From positions 124,001 to 188,000 of the forward strand of contig NZ_LISW01000001.1 of assembly GCF_001905735.1 (NCBI RefSeq): a stretch of DNA of 64,000 bases. The letters are read 5' to 3'. The DNA comes from Streptomyces sp. CB01249. GTDB lineage: Bacteria; Actinomycetota; Actinomycetes; Streptomycetales; Streptomycetaceae. The notes below the pieces were generated by a model. The model had not been told where the DNA came from, ran no database searches, and saw only the letters and a list, made by a program, of their open reading frames with translations. Made by a program: the position numbers and the translations under genes. Positions 27,146-41,836 of this stretch are shown here, in pieces; within the stretch, counting starts at the first letter, position 1; every line of letters starts with the position of its first letter.

Positions 27146-27679
27146 GGGCTCTGACCTGCAAGTCTGCGGATGTGCTTGTGGTGCGGTGTGGGCGCCATAG
27201 GTGATATCTCGAGCGCGGAATGCGGGCCGCTCCGCAGCGCTGGAATGTGTGGCTGTCTCCGGTAGCGGAACGGCCGACTTCCGGCGAGCAGTAGTCAGTC
27301 CGCGCTGTGGAAAGACAGTTCGTGAAGCGGGCCACGGACGGCGGTGAGTGGTGCCAGGGCCTGAGGCCGGGTACCAGAATGGGCCGCAGGCGAGTTCGCC
27401 AATGCAGCTGCGCAGGAAGTCAGCGATCAAGAGACGGCCGTCCGCCATCCTATGGTTGAGCCACTCGATGCCAGGCCCGCCCGAGGTAGGGATGGTGGCG
27501 ATGAGTGGCCGGGGCTGTCGCAGGGCCACGCCCGTACCTTCATGCGTGGGTAAAACTGTGAACAAAGTCAACATGCGTTAGCCTGACTCGGGATCGGGAA
27601 GGCGCGAGGGGCCGCCTGCTCAAGTGCTCCCGGAAGCCGGCACTCCCGTTCCCGTCCGGCCGACGCCTCTGGAGAATCG
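27146..27679. other. intergenic region at the left end of the island
   Basis: No supported gene in 534 bp. The first ~110 bases include a degenerate copy of the RNA methyltransferase 3' end (repeat at 27241-27258). Minus-strand frames over 27400-27570 look protein-like for short stretches but have no start or binding site I trust. Close to the methylase gene, CATGCGT occurs twice (27541-27547, 27572-27578), and the segment 27551-27580 is unusually A/T-rich, so the methylase promoter is likely here. Confidence 0.45.
27241..27258. repeat. left degenerate copy of the RNA methyltransferase 3' end (att-like)
   Basis: TGGAATGTGTGGCTGTCT here matches 16 of 18 positions in TGGAGTGCGTGGCTGTCT at 44797-44814, and both resemble bases 27111-27126 inside the intact gene. 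The shared 10-mer GTGGCTGTCT is exact. The two copies bracket the 17.5-kb methylase/kinase/pPIWI-RE/SARP segment. Confidence 0.5.
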
Positions 27680-29713
27680 ATGAACTCGCCCCCCGCCGTA
27701 CCGGTGACTCTGGCCGAGATCGCTCGGCTCGCGGGAGTGGGACGAGCCGCTGTGAGCAACTGGCGCCGCCGGCACGACACGTTCCCGCCACGAATCGGGG
27801 GCACCGACGCGAGCCCGCACTTTTCCCTGACGGACATCGAAATGTGGCTCAGGGACAACGGGAAGCGGGGGAAGGGTAGGAGTCGCGAGTGGCTCTGGCC
27901 CCGGTTCGAGGCCTTGGGCGACCGTGACGAGACCGGGCTCGCCATTGCCGCGGTGGGACGACTGCTCGCCGGCGAGCAGAATGACGGCGACGGATCCGGC
28001 GGTGCCGCGCCGGCACCGGGGCCGGTGCGGGCCGCTGTGGAGCTGGGGCGGCGCGAGGGTTCGTCCGAGGTCCTCATGTTTCTCTTGCGCCGCTGGCTGG
28101 ACACGCACGTACGCCAGATCCCCACCACCCCCGAGCCGCTGGCCGATCTCATGGCCGATCTGGCCCTGCGAACGTGTAAGCCGTTCGTCGGCGGGCACCC
28201 CGACGATCCCCTCAGGGTGCTCGACCCGGCGTGCGGAGTGGGCAATCTCCTGGCCGCCGCGGCGACAGCCGTTCCGACCGAGCTGAACCGGCCCGCCGCG
28301 CTTCTCGGCTGCGATCGCGATCCGGTGCTCACTGCTCTTGCCGACGTGCGACTCGCCCTGCTGCCGGGCCCCGAGACCCGAGGGCTCGCACCCGTGATGA
28401 CGCCGGGAGACTCCCTCCGCGCGGATCCCCTGATCGGTACGCAGGCGGACATGGTGCTCTGCAACCCGCCGGCCAACGAGCGGGACTGGGGGTACGAGGA
28501 TCTTGCCGCGGACACCCGGTGGGCGCACGGCACCCCGCCCCGCACTGAGCCCGAACTCGCTTGGGTGCAGCACTGCCTGTCCCGGCTTCGCCCCGGCGGC
28601 AGCGCGGTCCTGTTGCTGCCACCGACCGTGGCCGCGCGCAAGGCCGGACGGCGAATCCGCAGATCGCTGCTGCGGACCGGTGCTTTGCGGGCCGTGGTGG
28701 CGCTTCCGCCCGGATCCGCCGCGCCACACAGTCTCTCTCTGCACCTGTGGGTGCTGCGGCGGCCCGCTCCGGGGGAAGGTCCGCAGGGACCGGGAGAGTT
28801 CTTGTTCGTCGACGCCGCCGCCCGTTTTCCCCGGTCCACCGCTCGGGACAGCGGTCCTGACTGGGGTGAACTCGGGGCCTTCATCCGGTCCGTCGTCGGC
28901 GCGGCCGGGGGGGCAAGGCGTGGGCGGGCGACCGAGGAATCCGGCGCGATCGTGTGGGCCGCGACTGTCCCCGTCATCGACCTCCTCGACGACGAGGTGG
29001 ACCTCACCCCTGGTCGCCATACCACGTCGGCTTCGGGGCATGCCGGACCCCGGCTCGCGGCTGGCTGGAGGGAGGTCGGCGAATTGCTCGATGGTCTCCG
29101 GGCTGAAAGCGCCTCTCTGGCAGCCCTCGAGCTCGCTCTCGGTAGGGAGGGCCAGCCGAGTGCGACCGTCGCCGAACTTGCCCGGGCGGAGGCGCTTACT
29201 TTGCGCTCGGGCCGCCTTCCGGATGAAGCGGTTGTACCGGAGCCCGGGCGCGCGAGAGTTCCGCTACTGACCATCTCCGATCTGCTGCTGGACGTATCCC
29301 CCAGCGGATGGGCGTATCCGGACGACGCCGTCGTTGTGGAACCCGGAGACGTGGTGGTCGTCGGTGTGGCCAGGGAGTTCTCGGCCTGGGTGCATGAAGG
29401 CCCGCCGATGGCGGTGGGTTCGCAGATCCATGCACTCCGGGTCGATCCGGATGTACTCGACCCTTGGTTCGTGGCGGGTTCGCTCAAGGCACCGACCAAC
29501 GCCCGCCACGCTGGCACCCACGCGTCAAGTTCATCCCGGATCGACGTGCGCCGCCTCCAGGTGCGCCGGATCGAGCTGCCGGAACAGCAGCGATACAGCG
29601 AGGCTTTCCGGCACTTGGCAGCCTTTGAGAGACTGGCCGATCGCTTGCGGATCGTTGCCAAGGCGGTGGGGCAGGACCTCAGCGACGAACTTGCGGCGGG
29701 ACACCTGGCGTAG
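27680..29713 (+). CDS. N6-adenine-type DNA methyltransferase with N-terminal helix-turn-helix
   Basis: A 677-residue protein. An N-terminal HTH (about 7-50: EIARLAGVGRAAVSNWRRR) is followed by a Type I-like M domain. SAM motif I is LDPACGVGNLL (from about 181). Catalytic motif IV reads NPPAN, with A265 where the family normally has Phe or Tyr. The last ~230 residues look like a target-recognition region of HsdS type (half a specificity subunit plus coiled helix: SASLAALELALGR ... VRRIELPEQQRYSEAFRHL). No separate HsdR is beside it. It converges on the kinase gene. In context it may mark host DNA for the neighbouring nucleases. The alanine in NPPA may reduce or abolish catalysis. Confidence 0.88.
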   Translation: MNSPPAVPVTLAEIARLAGVGRAAVSNWRRRHDTFPPRIGGTDASPHFSLTDIEMWLRDNGKRGKGRSREWLWPRFEALGDRDETGLAIAAVGRLLAGEQNDGDGSGGAAPAPGPVRAAVELGRREGSSEVLMFLLRRWLDTHVRQIPTTPEPLADLMADLALRTCKPFVGGHPDDPLRVLDPACGVGNLLAAAATAVPTELNRPAALLGCDRDPVLTALADVRLALLPGPETRGLAPVMTPGDSLRADPLIGTQADMVLCNPPANERDWGYEDLAADTRWAHGTPPRTEPELAWVQHCLSRLRPGGSAVLLLPPTVAARKAGRRIRRSLLRTGALRAVVALPPGSAAPHSLSLHLWVLRRPAPGEGPQGPGEFLFVDAAARFPRSTARDSGPDWGELGAFIRSVVGAAGGARRGRATEESGAIVWAATVPVIDLLDDEVDLTPGRHTTSASGHAGPRLAAGWREVGELLDGLRAESASLAALELALGREGQPSATVAELARAEALTLRSGRLPDEAVVPEPGRARVPLLTISDLLLDVSPSGWAYPDDAVVVEPGDVVVVGVAREFSAWVHEGPPMAVGSQIHALRVDPDVLDPWFVAGSLKAPTNARHAGTHASSSSRIDVRRLQVRRIELPEQQRYSEAFRHLAAFERLADRLRIVAKAVGQDLSDELAAGHLA

Positions 29714-29787
29714 GGGCATCGACCCGGCCCCGCGGGCGGAGGCCTGCCAGGGAATGCTCGTCCGGGTGCGTGGCCCGGCCCGTGATG

Positions 29788-31299
29788 TCATTCCCGCTCG
29801 GGCTTCGCAGTGGGATCCAGCCTGCCATCCCGTTCGGCGAGCAGTTCGGAGATGCGATCCGCTACCTCGCGGCGCTCCGCCTCTACCCGGCCGGCGTACG
29901 GCTCGGGCAGTGCCGCTGCCACGTATCCGGCCTCGGCCACCACCTCGACGGTCGCCTCGATGTCCCCCTCGGACTCCAGTCGGCACCAGGCCGCGCGCAG
30001 ACCGAGCATCGTCCGGTCGGCCCGCCCCTGAGGCCCCCCTCCGCGTACCAGCTCGTCCGCGATGCCCTCGTAGAGCTGTGCGGCCGCATCGAAGTCTCCC
30101 GCGAGCCAGAACCCCCCAGCGGTCAGTTCCCAGACCCTCCGGACCAGCGGGCGGCGTCCCCACTCCTCGCGAACACGAGATGCGAGCCCGGCAAGTTCGC
30201 TCACCGCGCCCCCTGGTCCTCCCTCTGTCAACTCCTGTTCGGCTGCCGTGCAGAGCAGCGTGACCACGTCCGGGTCCAGCCACCCCCCATGCTCGTCGCC
30301 TTCGATGCTCCTGGTGGTCTCCTGCTGGGGCGATTCTTCTTTCTCCACGGTGGTCTCGATGAACCGGAAGGGGCGTGTGGGGTCGTGCAGGATCTGTGGA
30401 AGGGGCTCGGGGTCACCGGGCCGGGGGGTGAACTTGACCAGAACATCGAGGATTTCCCTCATGGTCGGGCGCTGTTCCGGCTTCTTGGAGAGCCCCCAGA
30501 GCACCAGCTTGTCCAAGGCATCCGGGATTCCCGCCGCGAGGTCGCCCGGGCGTAAGGGCATCTCGCGCAGGTGCTGGCGCTCCACCGATCCGTCACGGTT
30601 GTTGGTGATGAACGGAGGCCTTCCGGTGAGGAGTTCGTAGAGGACGCAGCAGAACGAGTAGACGTCTGAAGCTGCGGTGACCTCCTCGCCCTGAATCTGT
30701 TCCGGCGCCTGATAACCCCGCGTGCCGAGGGTTGAACCCGGTTGGGTGAGAGTTGACTCGATTGCGAGATCCTTGCCGATGCCGAAATCGATCACGAACC
30801 CCACACCCCGTTCGGAGATCATCGTGTTGTCCGGCTTCAGATCTCGGTGAAGCACACGGAGCTCATGGGCGTGCACGAAGGCGGCGGCGATCTGCGCGGC
30901 GGCGGAGATGGCGACGAGAGGCGCGAGCGGTGCGTACTGGTTGAGGAAGGCGCGCAGATTGATTCCCACCACGTAGGACATGACCAGGTAGGGCACACCG
31001 TGATGTGTTCCGAAGGCGTACTGCGCGGGGATGTTGGGGTGTCGCAGGCGTGCGAGGAGTTGTGCCTCGCGATAGAACCTGAGGCGCCGGAAGTGGAGTT
31101 CATCCTCCTGGTCCCGGGCGTCGAGTTGGAGGAGATCTTCGGAGTCCAGGCGCAGAAACTTCACGGCGACCTGTCGACCGGTTGTCCGGTCGCGGGCCCG
31201 CCAGATCTGGGCCATTGCTCCCTTGCCGGCCAGGTCGACCAGTTCGTAACGCTCGTCGATCAACTCCCCTGCCCGTACGTCCTCCCAGTCCGCTTCCAC
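29788..31299 (-). CDS. Ser/Thr protein kinase with C-terminal helical extension
   Basis: A 503-residue Hanks-type kinase without a transmembrane segment. Glycine-rich loop AGKGAMAQIW (24-33), VAVK lysine K47, HRDLKPDN (151-158) with catalytic D153, DFG at 171-173, and the APEQ segment are all intact, so it should be active. The last ~170 residues are helical and Glu/Ala-rich, perhaps TPR-like, and may bind a partner. It starts at a GTG (31299) preceded by GAGGGG. The gene is convergent with the DNA methylase and divergent from the pPIWI-RE operon, so it shares a 179-bp promoter region with the latter. Kinase-methylase pairing recalls Pgl/BREX-type phage defence. Confidence 0.9.
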   Translation of the reverse strand: MEADWEDVRAGELIDERYELVDLAGKGAMAQIWRARDRTTGRQVAVKFLRLDSEDLLQLDARDQEDELHFRRLRFYREAQLLARLRHPNIPAQYAFGTHHGVPYLVMSYVVGINLRAFLNQYAPLAPLVAISAAAQIAAAFVHAHELRVLHRDLKPDNTMISERGVGFVIDFGIGKDLAIESTLTQPGSTLGTRGYQAPEQIQGEEVTAASDVYSFCCVLYELLTGRPPFITNNRDGSVERQHLREMPLRPGDLAAGIPDALDKLVLWGLSKKPEQRPTMREILDVLVKFTPRPGDPEPLPQILHDPTRPFRFIETTVEKEESPQQETTRSIEGDEHGGWLDPDVVTLLCTAAEQELTEGGPGGAVSELAGLASRVREEWGRRPLVRRVWELTAGGFWLAGDFDAAAQLYEGIADELVRGGGPQGRADRTMLGLRAAWCRLESEGDIEATVEVVAEAGYVAAALPEPYAGRVEAERREVADRISELLAERDGRLDPTAKPERE

Positions 31300-31478
31300 C
31301 CTCTGCGCCCCTCTGTAGTCGACCCGAATGCCTCGTCAGAAGGCGCAGCGTACCGTGTACTTGCCGGGATGCATGACACGCAACGACATAGTTCACAACC
31401 TGTGCCATGCTGTTTGGTGTTTCGGTGGCCCGGGTTTCTCGGTTCACCCCGTACGTGCCGCCCTGAGCAGGGGGAACC

Positions 31479-33248
31479 ATGGAGAATCCGCTCGGAACCA
31501 CCGGCGAGAGCTGGCTGGTCAAGGTCAGTACGACCCACGCCCGAACCGACCCCCACGCCTGCCCGTCTCATCTGAGCACCGCAGTGCGGCCCCTGCTCGG
31601 CGCGGAGGCCCCGGGTGCCGCCGGTGTGCCACGTGTACCCCTGATGGGTGAACGGCCCAAACTCCTGGAGGACTTCGGTGCCGGTCCTCTCTTTGCCGCG
31701 CTGGACCTATGGGAGCACGAGCGCTGGCAACCCGGCCGGGTAGTCGACGAATTGAGCCAGACATCTGGCGTGTTCCGTGGGCGCAGCGCGCCTGCGCATC
31801 CCTCTCTCATTGCCTGGACCATCCATGCGTTCGAACGGTATGTCGCCGCCCGAATGCGGGAGCAGCGCGTCGCACAAGCCGCCGGGTTGCCCCCTACCGC
31901 CCCCGTACGGCTGGACTGGACCGTGCGTACCGCGCTTCGACAGCGTTCCGACGCCCGGGGCGCCCGGCAGTACGAGCACAGGACCTGGGGCCGCCAGTAC
32001 GCTTCGGCGGACGGCGCGGTGAGGGATCTGTGGATCCCCTCCTTCGGTCGTGCGAAGCCCGATCGAGCGGCGGCGGAGAAGGCTGCGATTGCCTATGTCG
32101 TCGCACATGGCCTGCCCGCCCGGAGGCGTCCTCGTCAGGCTCGCCCGCCGGAGACCTCCCTGGTGAACCCCACGCCACCGGAGCGAGTGCGGGTCTTCGA
32201 CTTCGGCTGTGCGGACGGCAGTGTCACCCGCCTGCTCGACTGGGGGCCGGATACCGTGCGCGAGCGGTTCGGGCGGGATGCCGCCCCCGCCTTCGCCGCC
32301 GTCGCCGCCGGCACCGAAGTGCGCCCGGGCGGCAGTTGTGTCGACTGCAAGGTCATCGGGCAGTGCGCCGAACTGCCGCGTACTCCGCGTTTGTGGGGGC
32401 CGTTTCGGGGCGCCACGCCGTTCCATGCCAGGCGCCGCTCCATCTCCGCCTGGGACCTACGACTTCATGGAGACTGCCCCGCCCAATACCACCTCGTGCG
32501 TCGGCTGTATCTCAACGACCTGACTCCGGAGAACCCTGGGGCGCGCCGGGGTCGGGTGGTGGACGCCGTCCTGAACGCGCGGCACGAGCGGCCTCTCCCC
32601 GGCGGCTGCAGGGAACTTCCCCAGGCGCACGAGGGCATGCTGCCCCCGGGGCACTCGTTGGAGGAACCGCTGGCCCAGAGCGCTCTGCGGATGTTGGATG
32701 AACACCGAGCGCTCTGTCCGCTGGACGGGCTGGCGCGGGACGAGAAGGTGCTTCCGCAGCACCGGGTCACGGCATACGTCCCCGAGCTGGACGTTGTCGT
32801 CCACGCTGTGCCGGATCTGCTCCATACCCGGCGGGGGCGGTGGATCTGGCGGGAGACCAAGACCGCCGCCGCACCCCTGTGGGAAGGTCGCCCGCTGCTG
32901 CGATCCTTCCCTCAACTTGCTCTGGCTGTGCTGCTGTTTGACAAGGGTGCGGTGGGGGGAGGGTCGCGCCGCGGTCGTGTCGAGTTGGAGCATCTACGGG
33001 AGTACGCGGGGGCAAGTCGTCTCGAAGCCATCGACCCCAGCCGCCGCGCGACGGTGGCGGAGGCACGTGAGGTGATCGCGGATCTCGCCGAACCTCTGCT
33101 CCGGGACACCTCGTACGAGCCTCGCACCGGTCGCCACTGCCGCTCCTGCCAAGTGCGTACCTGGTGCGCCCCCGGCACCGCGTTCGTCTCCGCCTCCCTG
33201 CCGGTCTCCGCCCCCGACGCCAGGCCGGGATCGGTCGAGCCGGCGTGA
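31479..33248 (+). CDS. Cas4/AddB-like PD-(D/E)XK nuclease with Fe-S cysteines
   Basis: First gene of a four-gene operon, 589 residues. It shows the iron-staple nuclease layout: an early Cys, C333 (GDCPAQYHL), then the active site D446 (VPDLL), E459 and K461 (ETK), then C554, C557 and C563 (CRSCQVRTWC). That order is typical of Cas4, AddB and related exonucleases with a [4Fe-4S] cluster. A second Cys set C287, C290, C296 (CVDCKVIGQC) lies just upstream. The N-terminal 280 residues are unrecognised. The ATG at 31479 has GGGGGAACC before it. Its stop overlaps the next gene by GTGA. It probably processes DNA ends for the pPIWI-RE system (inference). Confidence 0.8.
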   Translation: MENPLGTTGESWLVKVSTTHARTDPHACPSHLSTAVRPLLGAEAPGAAGVPRVPLMGERPKLLEDFGAGPLFAALDLWEHERWQPGRVVDELSQTSGVFRGRSAPAHPSLIAWTIHAFERYVAARMREQRVAQAAGLPPTAPVRLDWTVRTALRQRSDARGARQYEHRTWGRQYASADGAVRDLWIPSFGRAKPDRAAAEKAAIAYVVAHGLPARRRPRQARPPETSLVNPTPPERVRVFDFGCADGSVTRLLDWGPDTVRERFGRDAAPAFAAVAAGTEVRPGGSCVDCKVIGQCAELPRTPRLWGPFRGATPFHARRRSISAWDLRLHGDCPAQYHLVRRLYLNDLTPENPGARRGRVVDAVLNARHERPLPGGCRELPQAHEGMLPPGHSLEEPLAQSALRMLDEHRALCPLDGLARDEKVLPQHRVTAYVPELDVVVHAVPDLLHTRRGRWIWRETKTAAAPLWEGRPLLRSFPQLALAVLLFDKGAVGGGSRRGRVELEHLREYAGASRLEAIDPSRRATVAEAREVIADLAEPLLRDTSYEPRTGRHCRSCQVRTWCAPGTAFVSASLPVSAPDARPGSVEPA

Positions 33249-34435
33249 GTGAAGATGCCGGGCCGATTCCGGACTGGCTGGAGAACCCCGACGTGGTCCT
33301 TCTCCGCGACGTCGCCACGGCCGTTGCGCGATTGGACGAGGTCGGCCAGCTGGAATCCTTCGCCCTTCCGTACCCTCCTGACGCTCAGCGCGCCTTGGAC
33401 CGAGTGGTCCTCGCCTGTCTGCGCAGCGGGGCGCAGCCACCCACGGGGGTGCCGGAGATGATCGGGTGGTGCCGGACCCGCCCCTTGCGGAGCTGGCCCC
33501 TGGACGCGCTGCCTCTGGATCTCTTCAGGGGGGACAACCGGCTCGTCGACCCGCACTCCGGGAGGCCGACACAGCTCTGCGGCGAGCTCGAGGTCGAAGG
33601 GTTCGGGAACAGCACCGGCCGCCAGTACGCCCAGCTGGTGATCGGCGAAGCCATGAACGCCTGCCGTGCGGCGAACGTGCCCGAGTCGTACACGGCGTTC
33701 CGGCGGCTGTTGGTCACCCGGCCCTTGCTGACCGAGGCGGAGTGGCCCGACGTCAGCACGGACCTCTACCTCGAACCGGTCCAGTTCCTTGTCGACGAGG
33801 TCTACGCGCCTGTGCCGGCGGGCTATGACAGGGACGGTGTCAGCCTTGCTTGCGACCGCTGCCTCACACTACTCGTCCCCTTGGTTGATGGCGGCTGGTG
33901 GTGCGAACGTGAACACTGCCGGCGCCTAGGTTCTCCTCCCCCCGGCCGGCGACTGCCCGCTGATGAGGTGGGGGGACTGTGGCAGCTCCGGCGCCCGCTC
34001 CGGCAGTTCGTCACCGGGCCTGGACACGCCGAGGTGGATCTGGAGAGGAAGCTGCGCCGTATCGGCCTCGCCGTCGAGATGTGGCCAGGCTATGACGCGT
34101 ACGACCTGAGGATCACCTTTCCCGACGGCCACATCTGGGCAATCGACGTGAAGGACTGGACCCATCCGGGGTTTCTGGGCCGGGCCGCCGACACCGTACG
34201 CCCCGAGCCGCCGTACGACGAGGCGTGCTGGGCCGTGCCGCGATTCCGGGTCCGCGAGCGCGGCGACTACCTGGAGACCTTCGCCCGGGAGCGCCCCGCC
34301 CACGTGGCCGGGCTGCGCCTGCTCACCGACGACCAGGTGGTCGCGGCCGCCCGGAAACGCCTGCGCGGCGAACGAGGTCCGGACGCACACATTGCACCGG
34401 GGCCGCATAGGAGGGAGGGGGCGGATCGTGCGTGA
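33245..34435 (+). CDS. pPIWI-RE-associated restriction endonuclease-fold protein
   Basis: A 396-residue protein. A treble-clef/zinc-ribbon-like set C203, C206, C220, C225 (CDRC...CEREHC) precedes a compact PD-(D/E)XK domain with D287 (YDLRI), D301 and K303 (IDVKDW). This zinc ribbon plus REase arrangement fits the nuclease gene described beside pPIWI-RE genes. It overlaps the upstream gene by four bases (GTGA) and the helicase by eight, so translation of the operon is tightly coupled. Expected to be the DNA-cutting effector or a partner of the helicase; target unknown. Confidence 0.8.
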   Translation: MSEDAGPIPDWLENPDVVLLRDVATAVARLDEVGQLESFALPYPPDAQRALDRVVLACLRSGAQPPTGVPEMIGWCRTRPLRSWPLDALPLDLFRGDNRLVDPHSGRPTQLCGELEVEGFGNSTGRQYAQLVIGEAMNACRAANVPESYTAFRRLLVTRPLLTEAEWPDVSTDLYLEPVQFLVDEVYAPVPAGYDRDGVSLACDRCLTLLVPLVDGGWWCEREHCRRLGSPPPGRRLPADEVGGLWQLRRPLRQFVTGPGHAEVDLERKLRRIGLAVEMWPGYDAYDLRITFPDGHIWAIDVKDWTHPGFLGRAADTVRPEPPYDEACWAVPRFRVRERGDYLETFARERPAHVAGLRLLTDDQVVAAARKRLRGERGPDAHIAPGPHRREGADRA

Positions 34436-37400
34436 CCGCAGCGTCTGGTATCAGGGGCTGGTCAAGGACCTGAGACCGTGGCCGACGGAGTACCGCGGCA
34501 TCAAACCCGCTCTGCTCTGCCAGGTCGAACTGGGCCTGCGACTGTTGGAGAGGCTGGAGCCCGGACGGGCAGCGGACGGAGTCTGGGCGCTCCTCGGCGG
34601 CTACCCCTTCGCCTCCGCCGCCGGGCTGGCGAGAACCCCCGAAGATCAGCTCGCCATGACGGCGGCCCGCCACCTCCTGTGGCCCATGAGACGACGGCGC
34701 CTGTGGCAACAGAGCCTGGAAAGCTATCGGCAGCTTCCCGAGCAGCTGCGCGGCTACCGGGTCCCGGCCGGTGGCGGACCCGCACGCCGGGTCGCGCACC
34801 CGGTGGCCGCCCATCGCTTCGATGTCTATGACAGTGCGCTCGGACGGGTCCCGGGCTTTGCGACGAATCCGCTTCCGTACGCGAGGGAGGGGACACACCG
34901 TTTCAACGAGCATCGCCGTTATTCCTCCGTCACCATCCCCTCGGAGTTCGTGTTCGATCCCCCGCCGGGGCACGACCTCGCCGCTCCCCGTCCCCGCCCC
35001 GGCGGCCTCATCGAGGTTCCCCTGGCCGAACTCGAGGAGACCGCGAGGTGGATGGAGACGCGGCAGCTCCAGCTAGGTAGGCCGTCCGGCCAATGGTGTG
35101 AGCGGCTGGCCAGCCTCGAATTGGACGTTCGTACGGCAGACGGAAAGGACTTCGAGAAGGCAGAGGTGCTCGTCTTGGACGGGCTGAGGCACTTGGTGGG
35201 CATGGTCGGGGCCGGGAAGTCGACCCTCATGATCCTGCTCGCGGTCTGGGCGCACCAGCGGAATCTGCGCACCACGCTGGTGGTCGGCGACGTCGCTGAG
35301 CAGCTCAGCCAGACCCAGCTTCTTCAGGGGCTCGGTCTGCGGGTGGCGCTCGTCCAAGGCGCCACCACCCGGCCCAAGCACACCCAGCGCCTGCACCGGC
35401 GGCTCGCCGCACGCGGCAAGCGCTCGCTGCTGGACCACACCGATCCGGCCTTCGCCCACTTGAGCACGGCCTGTCCGCTCGACGCGCTGCGGGCCCTGGA
35501 AGTCGACGCGCCGCTGCGCTTCGCCGATGCGCCCTGCGGTTCCTTGTATCCGGTGGACCGTCGTGCGGACGAACCCGACCAGGAGGAGAACGCACGCTCG
35601 CGTGCCGCCCGTGTCACCCGGGAACTCCGGTACGCCCGAGGGGTCGGCCCGGTCGGGGCCGATGGCGGTCCCGAGTCCGGTGATGTTGAGGAAAGGGAGG
35701 ACCCGGGGAAGCGGCACGCCTGCTCGCTGTGGAGCGTCTGCCCCCGTCATTCCTCCTCGCGCGACCTCGTCGACGCGCTCATCTGGGTCGCCAACCCGGC
35801 GAGCTTGGTCCAGACTTCCGTGCCGCGTCAGCTCAACGCCGAGCGCCTGCGGTATCTGGAACTCGCCTGCCTGCGCAGCGACATCATCGTCGTGGACGAA
35901 GCTGACCGCGTTCAGATGCAGCTCGATCAGATGTTCGCCCCCACGGCCACGCTGGTCACCACAGGCCCTGAATCGTGGCTCGACCGGCTCCAGACCCATG
36001 AGATCGCCGAACTCTCCCGGCAGGGCCGGCTGCAACTCTCCGATCAGGATGTCGAACGTTGGTCGGCCGCCCTGGACGTCGTCGGATCCGCCGCCGATCG
36101 GCTCTACGCCATGCTCATCGACACCCCGGCCCTGCGGAACTGGGCACAGATCGACTACTTCAGCCCATGGACACTTCAGGAGCGCCTTCTCAGCGCCTGG
36201 TTTCCGCAGCACCAACCGGCCGTCGAGGACGACGACGCGTTGGACGAAGCCGCACTCTACGACGACGAGGAGGCCCTGCACGGTCCTTCCGAGCACACAC
36301 CCGTTGTGGAGGACACTCCCTGGGCCGCTCGCCGGGACCGGCTCACCAAGATCTTCGACGTCTTCCGTGACGACCCGCTCGGTGATGGTGGGCCGTATGG
36401 CACCTTCGCCGACGACCTGGCGAGGCTGGCCCACGACGTCCTGCACACGCTTCAGGAGAAGCGGACGCGTGGGCGCGTGCGAGTTCTGCTCGATGCCCTT
36501 CTCGACGGTGCGCCCAGGCCCTTCGAGCGACCGCCGCTTTTCAGCGAGGCACCACGGAACGAATCCGAGTTCACCGAGGAGTGGCTCGAACTTCAGGCGG
36601 AGAGGCTGGAGTTCACCCTGGTACTCGCGGCCCTGAACCAGCGGCTCGAACGCGTGACCTTCCTTTGGCCGCAGGTCGAGGCAGCCCTCCGGCTCGACCC
36701 CGGAGAACACGAGCTGACCAGGCGCCCGCCCCTGGACTACGCACCCCTGCTGCCCGAGTCCCCCATGGGCAATGTGCTTGGCTTTCAGTTCCTGCTCGAC
36801 GAGCGCGACAGCCGGGACGGACGGCGCACGGGCACCCTTCGCTTCTTCCGGTGCGCCGGGGTGGGCCGCGAACTTCTCCTCTCTCTGCCCAGGCTGGGCG
36901 CTGACGCCAACCGGGGCACGACGGGCCCGAACGTCCTGCTCATGTCCGGGACCAGTTGGGCGGGAACCTCCACCCGGGCCCACGTGGTCGCACCCGTCCA
37001 GGCAGTGCTCAAACCACAGCCGGAGGCACTGCGCTCGATCGGTGAGTCGCTGTTCCGCACCGAGTTCATGTACGACGACGCCGGGCAGCCCATCCGTATC
37101 TCCGGGCAGAACCCGGAGACGCGAGAGGCAGTCCTGCGCCTGCTCGTGGAGAAGCTGGCACGCCCCCCTCGGGACCGCACGCGTAGTCCCCTTCAACGAG
37201 AACTGGCGCAGATTCCCGATCCGCGTCGTCGACGAGCCCTTCTGCTCGTGGGCAGCTACCGGGAGGCCGCGCTGGTGGCCGCGACTCTCTCGGAGATGTC
37301 CGCCTGGCGGGAACGCGTACGGGTGCTCGCCGCGGACGACGCCGCGCTGGAGGCATCCCTCGCCGCGGAGGCGAGTTCCGTGGGAGCGTACACGGCGACC

Positions 37401-38126
37401 GCCGTGCGCCGGGGCGATCTGGCCGATTTCGCGACCGACAAGAGTGCCCAGATCCTGGTCGCGCCCCTGCTCGCGGTCGAACGCGGACACAACATCCTCA
37501 CCCCCTTCCAGAGCCCCGGCGAGGAGCGAGTGGCCGCGTTCGGCACCGTGTTCTTCCTCGTTCGCCCCCACCCCCGCCCGGATGACCTCTTCCTCTCCGT
37601 CTTCGCCATCAACGACTGGGCGGCGCGGTTCGTCCGCGACCACCCAGGGCTGGCGGAGGGTACATTCACCGGACTGGTCGGCGACGGTGCAGATCTCGAC
37701 GGAGCGGGCAGCGCCTTCCGTACGGTCGCGCGTGGGGTGTGGCGCCGTCTGCTCTCCCGCTCCTACATGTACTCCAGACTCTCCGACCCTGAGAAGGAGT
37801 CGTTCGCCTGGGACCAGCTAGTCACCCTCTGGCAGGTGATCGGCCGCCTGGTCCGCGGCGGTGTTCCCGCCAGAGTCGTCTTCGTCGACGCGGCGTTCGC
37901 CCCCCGGCTCGCGGCGGCCGGTGCCCGCGCGACCGACCAGCGACGACCGCGCTGGCAGAACGATCCCGGCTTGCTGGTCCACCTGCGCGACGTGCTGGCC
38001 CCCTACTTCGCCGAAGACCCCGGACCCTGCGCCGACCCGGCCGATCCATCCCTGGTCAGGCTGCTCTACCGGCCTCTGTACAACGCGCTGTGCGGGATCG
38101 ACACCTCGCCGCCCAGAGACCGCTGA
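34428..38126 (+). CDS. DinG/XPD-like Fe-S superfamily 2 helicase of the pPIWI-RE system
   Basis: A 1232-residue helicase. Walker A is VGAGKST (about 260-266) and motif II is VDEAD (489-493). Between them lie four cysteines, C349, C370, C432 and C438 (CSLWSVC), in the place where DinG/XPD helicases carry a [4Fe-4S] cluster. C-terminal helicase motifs include ALLLVGSYREA, a GHNI stretch and VTLWQVIGRLVRGG (motif VI). The N-terminal ~240 residues are specific to this family. GTG at 34428 with a purine-rich AGGAGGGAGGGG upstream. DinG-type enzymes unwind DNA or RNA-DNA hybrids 5' to 3', which fits the proposed R-loop targeting of pPIWI-RE systems. Confidence 0.87.
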   Translation: MRDRSVWYQGLVKDLRPWPTEYRGIKPALLCQVELGLRLLERLEPGRAADGVWALLGGYPFASAAGLARTPEDQLAMTAARHLLWPMRRRRLWQQSLESYRQLPEQLRGYRVPAGGGPARRVAHPVAAHRFDVYDSALGRVPGFATNPLPYAREGTHRFNEHRRYSSVTIPSEFVFDPPPGHDLAAPRPRPGGLIEVPLAELEETARWMETRQLQLGRPSGQWCERLASLELDVRTADGKDFEKAEVLVLDGLRHLVGMVGAGKSTLMILLAVWAHQRNLRTTLVVGDVAEQLSQTQLLQGLGLRVALVQGATTRPKHTQRLHRRLAARGKRSLLDHTDPAFAHLSTACPLDALRALEVDAPLRFADAPCGSLYPVDRRADEPDQEENARSRAARVTRELRYARGVGPVGADGGPESGDVEEREDPGKRHACSLWSVCPRHSSSRDLVDALIWVANPASLVQTSVPRQLNAERLRYLELACLRSDIIVVDEADRVQMQLDQMFAPTATLVTTGPESWLDRLQTHEIAELSRQGRLQLSDQDVERWSAALDVVGSAADRLYAMLIDTPALRNWAQIDYFSPWTLQERLLSAWFPQHQPAVEDDDALDEAALYDDEEALHGPSEHTPVVEDTPWAARRDRLTKIFDVFRDDPLGDGGPYGTFADDLARLAHDVLHTLQEKRTRGRVRVLLDALLDGAPRPFERPPLFSEAPRNESEFTEEWLELQAERLEFTLVLAALNQRLERVTFLWPQVEAALRLDPGEHELTRRPPLDYAPLLPESPMGNVLGFQFLLDERDSRDGRRTGTLRFFRCAGVGRELLLSLPRLGADANRGTTGPNVLLMSGTSWAGTSTRAHVVAPVQAVLKPQPEALRSIGESLFRTEFMYDDAGQPIRISGQNPETREAVLRLLVEKLARPPRDRTRSPLQRELAQIPDPRRRRALLLVGSYREAALVAATLSEMSAWRERVRVLAADDAALEASLAAEASSVGAYTATAVRRGDLADFATDKSAQILVAPLLAVERGHNILTPFQSPGEERVAAFGTVFFLVRPHPRPDDLFLSVFAINDWAARFVRDHPGLAEGTFTGLVGDGADLDGAGSAFRTVARGVWRRLLSRSYMYSRLSDPEKESFAWDQLVTLWQVIGRLVRGGVPARVVFVDAAFAPRLAAAGARATDQRRPRWQNDPGLLVHLRDVLAPYFAEDPGPCADPADPSLVRLLYRPLYNALCGIDTSPPRDR

Positions 38127-38180
38127 CCCACGCCGGACAGACACCGGCTCCTATTGCACAGTCCCCGAGGGAGTATTGCC

Positions 38181-41100
38181 GTGTACCGAGAGATCCGCCG
38201 ATCCGCCTACCACCTCGCCGATCCCGCCGCACCATGGACCCAGGACTACCGGGCCCTGCGCTTCCCCGAACACTGGCAAAGCCCACTTCTGGCGCTCCAC
38301 AACCACGGTCGGCCCGAGGCCGAGTGGCAGCGGACCCTGCCCACCAAGAGCCTGGACATCGCGCTGCAGACCCTCGCTCCCGAAGTGATCGTGCGGCCGC
38401 GGGCTCGCCCTCCGGTCGGTGAGGGGCCGCTGCCACCCGAGGACTTCTGGATGTACGTGCCCGCGGACGCGCCCGACCCTTTTCCCATCCGGGCGGGCGG
38501 TCAGGTGTTCAATGCCTGGCTGCGCACGCTGCTGCCCCGGCGAACCGAGCCCACCCCGGAGCTGCGTGCCCTCCTCCTGCGATGCGGCGACGAACTGTCG
38601 GGCACCCCGTTGAACTGGGAGAGTGTGCCGGGGATCGACCTTATCGGCGCGCACCTCACCGACGGCGGGACGGCCGCACCGGAGCCCCGACAGTTCCAAC
38701 TCGCCACCGATGCGCTCGCCCGCCGCGTCCGGGGCCTTGACCCCTACCCGTACGACGGGGGTGAACTGCGCTTCCAAGCGCTGCCCCGAGGCTCTCGGGA
38801 CCAAGGCGCGGAGCTCATGTCGCAACCGCTGTGCCGCACCATCAAACGCAAGGAGTGGTGGTTCTCGATCACGCTCAACATCTCACTGCACACCACGCCC
38901 TTCGACCCGCGGCCGCGGCTGCATCTGCACTGGGGGGTACGTCGCTGGGCCACCCACACGAGGTCCGACACCGGACGGCTGCCGCTGCCGTACGGACATT
39001 CCACCACGGTGTATCTGCGCCCAAAGATTCCTTGGCTGCCAGGAGTGCCCGCGTCTGAACGCGGGGCGCTGGCCCGGCTGCGGCGCGACCGCGCCTCCAA
39101 CGGCTTCACCTGGGTCGAGAACGACCCTGCTGGCATCCTGCACCAGCTCAGCGTCGTAGGACAGTTCCCCGCTCCCGAACACCTGCTCGCAAGCCCGGAA
39201 GACTGGATCGGTGACGGCCCCGGCGTTCGGGCCGCCGTCGTCCACAGCAACCACATGGGCGCCCATGAGGTCGGCCCGGGACTCATGCCGCATCAGAGGT
39301 CCCAGCTCACCGCGTGGGCGGAGACGGCGCTGCCGCCGGGCGTGGTCCGGCTGCCCGATCTGGTGCGCGGACGCGGAAAGGGCATCGGAGCCCCGGCCAA
39401 TCGGCGTGCAAAGCCGTTGGGCGAGCCGGCGAAGAGGGCCGAGGAATCGCGCGCGGCGCTCGCCCGGCGCCGCGCCATCGCGATGCTCGAGGACCGTGCC
39501 GGGCTCACGTCCGATTCGGAAGTCGAGCGGACGCATGTGACGGCCCGGCTGCTCTGGCGGACCGCGGAACTACGCCGCCACGCGATCCGGGAGTTTGCCA
39601 GGACGTTGGGCCTCGACGGCGATGGCGGAGCGCACGACCTGTCGGAACAGGCATTTGACGACGCCCGTCCAGGCCGGCCCGTGATGCTCGAATGGCGGAG
39701 CCCGGAACTCGTCGCGCGGCTGCGCTGCCTACCGCTCACCGACGGGCTCGCGGACGGGCTCGTTCTCGATCCGGCCATCGGACGCCGGGGAGAGCGAGCG
39801 GCCCGTGCTGTGACGGCGCGCCGTCGGGAGCTGAGCGGCTGGCTGCGTGCGGACGGCGCCGACCCGAGCCGTCCCGGCCTCGCCCTGGTCGAGATCGGCC
39901 ACCGGACGACCTTCCGAGAGGCGGACACCGACCCCAAGTTCGCCCAGCGCCTCGGGTGCGCCGACGCGGGAGTGCTGACTCAGTTCGTCGTCACGCCCTC
40001 TGAAGAACGTCGGGTAGCCAACGCGGACACGGTCGAACACAGGGTTCACCAGGCCTGGTTGGACGGCTTCCGTCAGCTCGGCGTACGTGTCCTGCCGGAA
40101 CATACCCTGGGCGGTGACCTGCCGGACGGTCTTCAGTACGCCGCCCTCTGGATGGTCAAGCGGCGTAAGGACGGACCTACCCGGCTGCCGAGGCATCTGC
40201 CGGTCGCCGTGCTCGTCACTCCGCTCGCCGAGGGCGGTGGACTCTGCGTCGTCCGTGGGTGGGACGACGACACCCGTACCTGGATCCCTTATCCGCACTT
40301 CCTGCTCGCGCTGGTGAAGAAGGCCGAGGTCGACCCGTCCGCTCCGGACGAGCCCGGCGCCGACGGCGCGCCGCGTATCACCGCGAAGGCGCGGCGGACC
40401 AATCTGTCAGAGCAGCGTAAGGACACCGCGAGCTTCCTCCAGCGCATGCTGCACTCGCTCCGCCATCAGCCGACCGTTCTCATCACCCATGCGCAGAACA
40501 GCAGGTCGCACTGGCCTTGGCTGCAGGACGGGCAGATCGAGCCCGATGCGATCAGGGTCGGTCACGCCCCACCGGGAGGCATCGACGACGAACTCCGGCT
40601 GGTCCGGGTGCGTGGGCGAGCCAGCCATGAGACGGCTCAGTGGTGGGGCCTGGCGGAGCCGGGCAAGGCCCACGGCCAGCCAGCGGGGTTCTGGGCGGTA
40701 CCACCAAGGGGCGGGGAATGCGATGACATTGCTGGGCGTGTGTTCTACAGCAGCACGGAACGTCCCGGAACCTTCGCGGTCTCACCGGCACTCGACAGGC
40801 TCGCCGCTCGGGTCAACGCCGCGGGAAAGCTTACCTCCCAGGCAGGCACCGGAGCCTGGAACCCGACCTTGGTCGAGATCGCTGTGCTCGGCTGCCATGC
40901 GGAGCGGGACGTGGAGTTGTCATCATCTTCCACGCCTGACGAACCCGAGGCCATCGCTCTCGCTATGCATCAACTGCGCATGGCTCCCGACTATCCGGTC
41001 GCGCTCGCTCTTCCGCTTCCCCTGCACCTCGCCGGATTGGCTCAGGCATACGTCCTTCCTACCGTCGCGGCGGAAGAACCGGGAGCGGAGGCCACAGACG

Positions 41101-41234
41101 GGGAGATCATGCCGGAGCGTTCCGACGAGGAGACCGGAAGCCTGCCCGACGACCGAAAGCGGGCCCCGGATGCCGCCGGCATGCCGATTCCAGCTCCGCG
41201 TCGCGAGGCGCCGGACCGGTCAACTATTTTCTGA
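38181..41234 (+). CDS. pPIWI-RE Argonaute-like protein
   Basis: A 1017-residue protein that I read as a prokaryotic PIWI of the RE class. It has the family's layout: an N-terminal all-new region (YREIRRSAYHL...), a MID-like central part with a charged helical segment (about 380-480), and a C-terminal RNase H/PIWI-like half. The C-terminal half shows the expected conserved Arg and Glu (R806, R809, R811 and E817 in ELRLVRVRGRASHET) and the late PLPLHLAGLAQAY motif. No PAZ domain is seen. GTG at 38181 follows GAGGGAG; 54 bp after the helicase. The last ~60 residues are acidic and Pro-rich. The class is predicted to use RNA or R-loops to direct nucleases against plasmids and phages. Function here is inferred from family and neighbours. 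Confidence 0.82.
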   Translation: MYREIRRSAYHLADPAAPWTQDYRALRFPEHWQSPLLALHNHGRPEAEWQRTLPTKSLDIALQTLAPEVIVRPRARPPVGEGPLPPEDFWMYVPADAPDPFPIRAGGQVFNAWLRTLLPRRTEPTPELRALLLRCGDELSGTPLNWESVPGIDLIGAHLTDGGTAAPEPRQFQLATDALARRVRGLDPYPYDGGELRFQALPRGSRDQGAELMSQPLCRTIKRKEWWFSITLNISLHTTPFDPRPRLHLHWGVRRWATHTRSDTGRLPLPYGHSTTVYLRPKIPWLPGVPASERGALARLRRDRASNGFTWVENDPAGILHQLSVVGQFPAPEHLLASPEDWIGDGPGVRAAVVHSNHMGAHEVGPGLMPHQRSQLTAWAETALPPGVVRLPDLVRGRGKGIGAPANRRAKPLGEPAKRAEESRAALARRRAIAMLEDRAGLTSDSEVERTHVTARLLWRTAELRRHAIREFARTLGLDGDGGAHDLSEQAFDDARPGRPVMLEWRSPELVARLRCLPLTDGLADGLVLDPAIGRRGERAARAVTARRRELSGWLRADGADPSRPGLALVEIGHRTTFREADTDPKFAQRLGCADAGVLTQFVVTPSEERRVANADTVEHRVHQAWLDGFRQLGVRVLPEHTLGGDLPDGLQYAALWMVKRRKDGPTRLPRHLPVAVLVTPLAEGGGLCVVRGWDDDTRTWIPYPHFLLALVKKAEVDPSAPDEPGADGAPRITAKARRTNLSEQRKDTASFLQRMLHSLRHQPTVLITHAQNSRSHWPWLQDGQIEPDAIRVGHAPPGGIDDELRLVRVRGRASHETAQWWGLAEPGKAHGQPAGFWAVPPRGGECDDIAGRVFYSSTERPGTFAVSPALDRLAARVNAAGKLTSQAGTGAWNPTLVEIAVLGCHAERDVELSSSSTPDEPEAIALAMHQLRMAPDYPVALALPLPLHLAGLAQAYVLPTVAAEEPGAEATDGEIMPERSDEETGSLPDDRKRAPDAAGMPIPAPRREAPDRSTIF

Positions 41235-41741: not shown

Positions 41742-41759
41742 CGTTAGCTGAACGTTAAA
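41742..41759 (+). promoter_or_regulatory. two CGTTA-type heptamers at 11-bp pitch (SARP-like box)
   Basis: CGTTAGC and CGTTAAA are separated by four bases, so their starts are 11 bp apart. SARP regulators bind such heptameric direct repeats with one-turn spacing. The site is 78 bp upstream of the SARP gene and could mediate autoregulation. Confidence 0.45.
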
Positions 41760-41836
41760 TGCCGCTCGATGGGATGTGTCATGCTTTTGCTCCGGTGGTC
41801 GCGGATCCACCGCGAACGGGAAGAAGGCGAGGCGTC

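Follow-up and report, generated by a model that had tools for sequence, protein, structure and literature searches.

A methylase-kinase pair inherited with a Streptomyces pPIWI-RE operon, and its probable role as an autoregulated control layer

The stretch of DNA analysed here (the window) comprises 64,000 nucleotides of Streptomyces sp. CB01249, C1:124001-188000 of a 7.64-Mb genome, and its relatives from our searches are mostly Streptomyces (L, G and C numbers denote loci, genomes and contigs). It carries a pPIWI-RE operon together with genes for a helix-turn-helix (HTH) methylase and a Ser/Thr kinase, whose relation to that operon is our subject. The methylase gene, a stop-free open reading frame of 677 amino acids, is convergent with the kinase gene (503 amino acids) across a gap of 74 bp, and the kinase gene is divergent from the + strand PD-(D/E)XK/REase/DinG/pPIWI-RE operon (31479-41234; REase, restriction endonuclease). 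This layout, first described in a reading of the sequence alone (the sequence-only reading), is confirmed, and the kinase is intact. The features are as follows.

27557-27573, − strand: predicted autoregulatory operator, an exact 17-bp near-palindrome, TGTTGACTNNGTTCACA, 106 bp 5′ of the methylase ATG
27680-29713, + strand: HTH-methylase (Pfam N6_Mtase, 6.2e-25; PADLOC MTase_I PDLC03037, 291 bits; AlphaFold2 model)
29788-31299, − strand: PknB-like Ser/Thr kinase, soluble-looking, C-terminal half alpha-helical and TPR-like (Pfam Pkinase, 1.3e-43)
31381-31397, + strand: decayed operator copy, CAACGACATAGTTCACA, in the kinase/nuclease divergent promoter, with the right half intact and five mismatches in the left half
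31479-33248, + strand: PD-(D/E)XK nuclease (PprPDDEXK), cysteine-rich (PADLOC, 558.6 bits; Pfam PDDEXK_1, 2.5e-21)
33164-34435, + strand: PprRE, a pPIWI_RE_Y and pPIWI_RE_REase protein (Pfam PF18156, PF18154), given as the longest open reading frame; the true start may be downstream
34392-38126, + strand: PprDinG, a DinG-type helicase with a pPIWI_RE_Z domain (PADLOC, 983 bits)
38154-41234, + strand: PprPIWI, with X, MID and RNase H domains (PF13111, PF18157, PF13032; PADLOC, 1183 bits)
41759-44551, + strand: SARP/BTAD-NB-ARC-TPR (AfsR-like STAND) regulator, related to the class B slot protein described below

The domain and gene features of pPIWI-RE membership are present, namely the domains of the PIWI protein, a gene with Y and REase domains and a DinG helicase with a Z domain (Pfam, PADLOC). 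The methylase and kinase recur beside such operons in other actinomycetes. A scan of genome contigs with the pPIWI-RE protein gave a close-relative set of 35 loci, in which the methylase and kinase were identified by profile search; 33 of them hold the relevant stretch (L115 ends at a contig edge and L122 is a fragment). Among these 33 testable loci, which span Streptomyces, Nocardia, Umezawaea, Micromonospora, Wenjunlia and others, 31 have the methylase, 32 the kinase and 31 both. The exceptions are L114, which has the kinase without the methylase and whose genome holds no close methylase relative, and L119, which has neither gene and a truncated operon. Two of the 31, L103 and L105, have the methylase gene beyond the PIWI gene. 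In a Nocardia locus (L121, 5326-11992), the methylase and kinase are intact, the PD-(D/E)XK and PIWI parts share one reading frame and the REase and DinG genes are gone, apparently through an internal deletion.

A broader sample was obtained from an unselected draw of 392 Streptomyces genomes, 71 of which have a PprPIWI match; we analysed the 51 loci (50 genomes) above 400 bits, leaving out weaker hits, which are partial or distant (21 of the 71 genomes), and counting once a G420 gene split across two contigs. The PD-(D/E)XK gene is present at all 51 loci. Methylase and kinase occur together at 25 of them (class A is our term for such methylase-plus-kinase loci), 23 with the window's layout or one near it; in G163 and G517 both genes lie on one strand. 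The HTH-methylase is found without the kinase at three loci. At 12 (class B: kinase and SARP-NB-ARC-TPR gene, no methylase) the methylase slot, convergent with the kinase, is filled by the SARP-NB-ARC-TPR gene, and at 11 a four-gene module stands in place of methylase and kinase. This divergent module, seen in L166 (2105-7246) and also in L075, L076, L167-L170 and L172-L175, encodes proteins of about 291, 374, 503 and 447 amino acids, the first three without a Pfam match and the last a helicase-like ATPase; in L075 three of these genes are visible and the fourth falls outside the stretch. Together, these counts bear out the proposed recurrence of both genes beside pPIWI-RE operons: methylase and kinase form a conserved unit with pPIWI-RE, and every locus has an accessory, mostly divergent gene set, which comes in several versions, the methylase-kinase pair among them.

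The two genes are also inherited with the operon. Across 35 loci, pairwise distances of the methylase and of the kinase each correlate with those of PIWI at r = 0.98; co-evolution of methylase and kinase beyond this shared inheritance was considered and rejected (partial correlation −0.08 given PIWI and DinG). In the methylase tree, 43 rows (35 from pPIWI-RE loci, three from DISARM, three marked as both and two others) fall in one clade with a Shimodaira-Hasegawa-like approximate likelihood ratio of 99, and in the kinase tree the pPIWI-RE kinases cluster together, with DISARM-linked kinases in two groups of their own; both trees are of the quick kind, contain some long branches and leave L071 outside. 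Defence genes do cluster, and related methylases and kinases are found elsewhere, so that the pair might consist of independent systems brought by chance into the same defence-island neighbourhood. We regard this as very improbable, given that order and orientation are fixed across Streptomyces, Nocardia, Umezawaea, Micromonospora and Wenjunlia, that distances follow those of PIWI so closely, and that the loci share an operator.

The AlphaFold2 model of the methylase (predicted local distance difference test score, pLDDT, 86.4; predicted template-modelling score, pTM, 0.70) comprises a winged HTH at about residues 8-60, an HsdM-like N6-adenine methyltransferase core (150-386), a beta-rich region that resembles a target-recognition domain and a 40-residue C-terminal helix (633-672). 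Its nearest PDB entries are N6-adenine methyltransferases, mostly of type I, with template-modelling scores of about 0.4 over a partial alignment. Motif I (DPACGVG) is intact, and motif IV reads NPPA, not NPP[F/Y/W] or [DNS]PP[YFW]. In EcoKI mutants, loss of the motif IV aromatic residue impairs N6 methylation. Catalysis by the window's methylase is doubtful because its motif IV has lost this residue. Among 48 readable pPIWI-linked methylases, 12, the window's included, lack F, Y or W at this position and 36 keep F or Y, with the duplicates L093/L050, L110/L056, L139/L100, L141/L092, L142/L091, L143/L102, L144/L111 and L150/L103 counted once each; all 13 DISARM-only copies have NPPF. The closest locus, L152, is 75-85% identical across seven genes and its methylase has NPPS. 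For this pair the ratio of nonsynonymous to synonymous substitution rates (dN/dS) of the methylase is 0.21, the five operon and kinase genes set beside it giving 0.17-0.31, and methylase ratios are 0.12-0.26 in five pairs without the motif IV aromatic residue versus 0.16-0.31 in seven NPPF pairs. The window's methylase is thus probably impaired, yet still under purifying selection.

These data bear on the possibility that the locus is a restriction-modification system, in which host DNA marked by the methylase would escape the nuclease/pPIWI-RE complex, with the kinase adjusting activity. The HsdM-like fold with its target-recognition-like region, the aromatic residue kept in 36 of 48 pPIWI-linked and 13 of 13 DISARM-linked copies, and the near-constant presence of the methylase in the close clade would all fit such a system; the 12 copies that lack the residue and are nevertheless intact and constrained would not, nor would the absence of a methylase from L114 and from 23 of the 51 Streptomyces loci (12 of class B and 11 with the four-gene module), in all 23 of which the effector genes are complete. 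We consider restriction-modification rather unlikely, and the protection of host DNA by the methylase, as the sequence-only reading had it, becomes doubtful in the window, where motif IV, as in 11 other pPIWI-RE loci, has no aromatic residue in a gene under purifying selection.

The window's genome holds a paralogous HTH-methylase (G000:C11:110163-112375, L067) with HPPF as motif IV, a kinase nearby and an exact operator copy; similar pairs occur in G417 and G458 (L068 and L069), which suggests that the L067-L069 methylases represent an older, chromosomal member of the family.

The kinase retains the VAVK lysine, HRD and DFG, and these are invariant in all 39 members of its clade. It fits the PknB model at 259 bits, and its structural model has a pLDDT of 86.6 and a pTM of 0.62; the TPR-like label is a reading of the helix pattern. 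The window's SARP-STAND protein (41759-44551) matches the slot protein of all 12 class B loci (L145-L149, L153, L157-L161 and L163) at 31-61% identity, and a protein of L152 at 76%; the window and L152 carry both this regulator and the methylase. Since the exchange of the slot with an AfsR-like SARP-STAND gene parallels AfsK/AfsR, the kinase is by analogy likely the signal input of the regulator. We would further guess that control in the window is passing from the methylase to the SARP-STAND protein, because both regulators are present, motif IV is lost and the effector site has decayed.

Methylases of the window's clade also stand beside class 1 DISARM (defence island system associated with restriction-modification). 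Of 34 DISARM loci (DrmD hits above 1300 bits; partial ones of G475 and G763 left out), 14 have a methylase of this clade and two kinases before DrmD-DrmMI, and 20 have no methylase, one of these, L200, having a kinase. In L105, G475 (L057, L133) and G624 (L151, L176), one methylase lies between the pPIWI-RE and DISARM operons; DrmA and DrmB were confirmed in G475 with PADLOC. L103 has the methylase, two DISARM-type kinases and a DrmD remnant of 76 residues, and in both L103 and L105 (G494 and G495) no gene occupies the slot beside the pPIWI-RE kinase, and the only close methylase copy is that on the DISARM side. Independence of the two genes from the operon, which would have told against the sequence-only reading, therefore holds in part: the same methylase clade also serves class 1 DISARM, with other kinases. 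A DISARM-type HTH-methylase in L054 (G421:C16), sister to that of L053, has no DISARM within its 20-kb stretch and was perhaps left behind after DISARM loss.

Furthermore, an extra kinase gene, often near class A loci, is divergent from that of a large Druantia-E-like helicase (PADLOC DruE models), with the operator between them (L139 17225-18355, L140 1631-2761, L154 16483-20000, L245 10576-17065 and L249 3725-10120). Operator copies also precede other operons in DISARM islands (L241-L244, in G456, G424 and G402), which comprise a GajB-like UvrD helicase with DrmA-DrmB, and a ParB-like gene with a large AAA protein.

What these loci have in common is a short site. Class A kinase/nuclease intergenic regions share the near-palindrome TGTGRACTNAGTTCACA. 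If the left half of this site is taken as a −35 element, a −10-like box (CATGCT) follows at a distance of 18 bp. Scanning the retrieved loci, 2.75 Mb in total, revealed related sites upstream of methylase genes, including that at 27557-27573 of the window, between kinase and DrmD in all 14 methylase-bearing DISARM loci, and between the extra kinase and the Druantia-E-like helicase (L139-L141, L154-L156, and also L245 and L249). At the effector promoter a site with up to three mismatches is present in 45 of 46 class A loci (43 by scripted scan, with L057 and L105 located separately), in none of the 12 class B and two kinase-only loci, and in two of 14 loci without a kinase, L165 and L171, both of which have the HTH-methylase; shuffled promoters gave 0 of 370. 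An alignment of class B kinase/nuclease promoters was uninformative as to a common motif. The methylase's own promoter has the site in 34 of 40 loci, and methylase-less DISARM has it in one of 20 (L200, beside its kinase). L071, whose methylase and kinase share an operon, has only one divergent promoter, between methylase and nuclease, and this contains a copy with one mismatch; in L164, L165 and L171, which have the methylase without the kinase, a variant at three to four mismatches occupies the methylase/nuclease divergent promoter.

Genome-wide counts agree with this distribution. The window's genome contains two exact copies of TGTTGACTNNGTTCACA, one before the window's methylase and one before the HTH-methylase paralogue on C11, and three sites at up to two mismatches, with none for the reversed control. 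The 150 relatives contain 93 sites at up to one mismatch, spread over 60 genomes (control, three); among the matches listed, at least 37 of 42 exact and at least 16 of 51 one-mismatch sites have a methylase gene no more than 1.2 kb downstream. Of 95 methylase-positive genomes, 36 have exact sites and 58 have one-mismatch sites; of 55 methylase-negative genomes, the numbers are 0 and 2. The methylase-promoter, DISARM and genome-wide counts are more independent than the 45 of 46. The operator site tracks the methylase, not the kinase.

We propose, with a probability of roughly 60%, that the locus is an extended pPIWI-RE system under an autoregulated HTH-methylase that regulates defence operons, with the kinase as its probable input. 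The effector part, presumably antiphage, would consist of the PD-(D/E)XK nuclease, the REase, the DinG helicase and the pPIWI-RE protein. The methylase-like protein would act mainly as a DNA-binding regulator, its winged HTH binding the near-palindrome as a dimer, both in front of its own gene and in the divergent promoter that separates kinase and nuclease genes; the model has the winged HTH and a conserved site lies at the gene's own promoter, two features expected of an autoregulated regulator. C5-methylases are known that carry an HTH and repress their own promoter. In the kinase/nuclease promoter the site overlaps a putative −35 element, so that repression would be the likeliest sign of regulation. 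The methyltransferase fold might sense S-adenosylmethionine, DNA or modification state, and may also methylate in many relatives. The kinase would receive an infection or stress signal and phosphorylate the regulator or the SARP-STAND protein, switching the effectors; the control of effectors by the kinase, already put forward from the sequence, remains plausible. In related genomes the same regulator family would control class 1 DISARM and the Druantia-like helicase operon.

More tentatively, and with the balance slightly against it, we can envisage an adenine-methylase fold turned master transcription regulator, catalytically dead in some lineages, with one operator and attached Ser/Thr kinases jointly controlling pPIWI-RE, class 1 DISARM and the Druantia-like helicase operon in actinomycetes, such that one methylase gene might serve two defence systems in L105, G475 and G624.

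Several observations weigh against control by an HTH-methylase regulator. Most relatives keep NPPF as motif IV, and therefore methylation probably matters there. Because class A promoters supplied the motif in the first place, the 45 of 46 involves some circularity, and the window itself is the sole class A exception: its effector-promoter site, at the position of the conserved site of other class A loci, has five mismatches, all in the left half. Fisher values on the counts of methylase-positive and methylase-negative genomes ignore relatedness and are descriptive only. Among the matches listed, 35 of 51 one-mismatch and 5 of 42 exact sites are not before a methylase gene; about eight of these 40 sites lie in defence islands. 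Those of L241-L245 and L249 precede defensive-looking operons (DrmA-DrmB by likeness, a GajB-like UvrD helicase, a large AAA protein and a Druantia-E-like helicase), and those of L246, L247, L248, L250 and L251 precede genes that look ordinary and unrelated to defence. Of the top 70 methylase matches listed, 22 have no upstream copy at up to one mismatch. A trans-acting regulator encoded elsewhere could own the operator, with the HTH-methylase as one target only, and sites before operons that do not adjoin a methylase (L242-L245) are what it would predict. Exact copies are nevertheless found in none of the 55 methylase-negative genomes, methylase-less loci lack sites (0 of 12 in class B, 1 of 20 in DISARM), and the rearranged L071 retains its site at the promoter that drives the methylase; we judge a trans-acting owner to be quite unlikely.

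To our knowledge, no regulation of pPIWI-RE systems and no way in which they spare the host have been described. If the HTH-methylase is indeed their regulator, pPIWI-RE effectors would be held by a dedicated protein with kinase input, exchangeable with a SARP-STAND protein and shared with DISARM. A methylase fold with a decayed catalytic motif would then have been retained to recognize DNA, and unrelated antiphage systems would share one layer of control.

Other features of the window can be stated briefly. In the PD-(D/E)XK nuclease, D444, E457, K459 and several cysteines are invariant. Several invariant cysteines of this protein (31479-33248) lie close to the C terminus, an arrangement that we take to resemble Cas4/AddB-type iron-sulphur nucleases. 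Searched by sequence against solved structures, the pPIWI-RE protein had no match at E ≤ 0.01, and PIWI catalytic residues are listed only as conserved columns, without assignment. Left of the methylase lie amino-acid permease-like and TRAM/tRNA-U5-methyltransferase-like genes, which look like ordinary chromosome.

Among known systems, the phage growth limitation (Pgl) and bacteriophage exclusion (BREX) systems, to which the sequence-only reading had likened the locus, likewise group effectors with a methylase and a Ser/Thr kinase at a single locus, and the idea of kinase-to-methylase signalling is found in the available parts of two sources (Hoskisson, 2015, PMC4365076; PMC11842806); the window's effectors are different. 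It is not a Pgl/BREX system: the best PglZ match in the window's genome, outside the window, reaches 23 bits, under the Pfam cut-off of 25, the kinase's PglW score is 66.7 bits where the cut-off is 990, and PglX/BrxX is not among the 18 PADLOC families that the methylase matches. General scans of seven window proteins gave no match to PglY/BrxC, for which no search with its own model was made. MADS (methylation-associated defence) shows some likeness in PADLOC, the methylase matching mad2 at 68.5 bits, its HTH mad1 at 25 bits and the kinase mad6 at 216 bits. Membership was rejected because scores are far under the NCBIfam cut-offs (MADS2, 23.4 bits against 720; MADS6, 123.7 bits against 460); other MADS genes were not sought singly.

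The likeness to class 1 DISARM lies in relatives, where a methylase of the window's clade stands beside DrmD-DrmMI together with two kinases and the same operator; the HTH-methylase is, however, not among DISARM's own methylases. In the window itself none of seven scanned proteins matches the Drm models, and the best DrmD match in its genome is 4.4e-12. AfsK/AfsR likewise pairs a Ser/Thr kinase with a SARP-NOD-TPR regulator, as in class B and at 41759-44551; according to the available part of its source, AfsR regulates antibiotic synthesis, whereas here the pair flanks nucleases, and AfsR activity was only weakly affected by phosphorylation in vitro (PMC10936776). RptR, BrxR/CapW, CapR and C proteins, in the part of the source at hand, are regulators that bind DNA and have conserved palindromic sites in the promoters of defence genes (PMC12255303); here the regulator has an N6-adenine-methylase fold and its site spans several unrelated defence systems.

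In the open-licence literature, which includes few subscription journals or preprints, we found no paper joining the methylase or kinase to pPIWI-RE, none on kinases with DISARM, none on MADS and none linking this operator to defence genes; in PMC7641849 'PIWI-RE' means 'Piwi-related'. One of the closest systems is pPIWI-RE itself. Its published description, in the part available, gives gene triads with an REase and without an associated methylase (Burroughs, Iyer and Aravind, 2013, PMC3702460), and guided cleavage has been reported for a relative, again in the available part of the source (PMC10991935). By that description and the PADLOC Ppr models, the window's four effector genes are strong members, and the window's unit also includes the HTH-methylase and the kinase. 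The sequence-only suggestion that the composite extends known pPIWI-RE systems is upheld by the inheritance of both genes with the operon. The effector genes belong to a known system, and the regulatory layer looks new.

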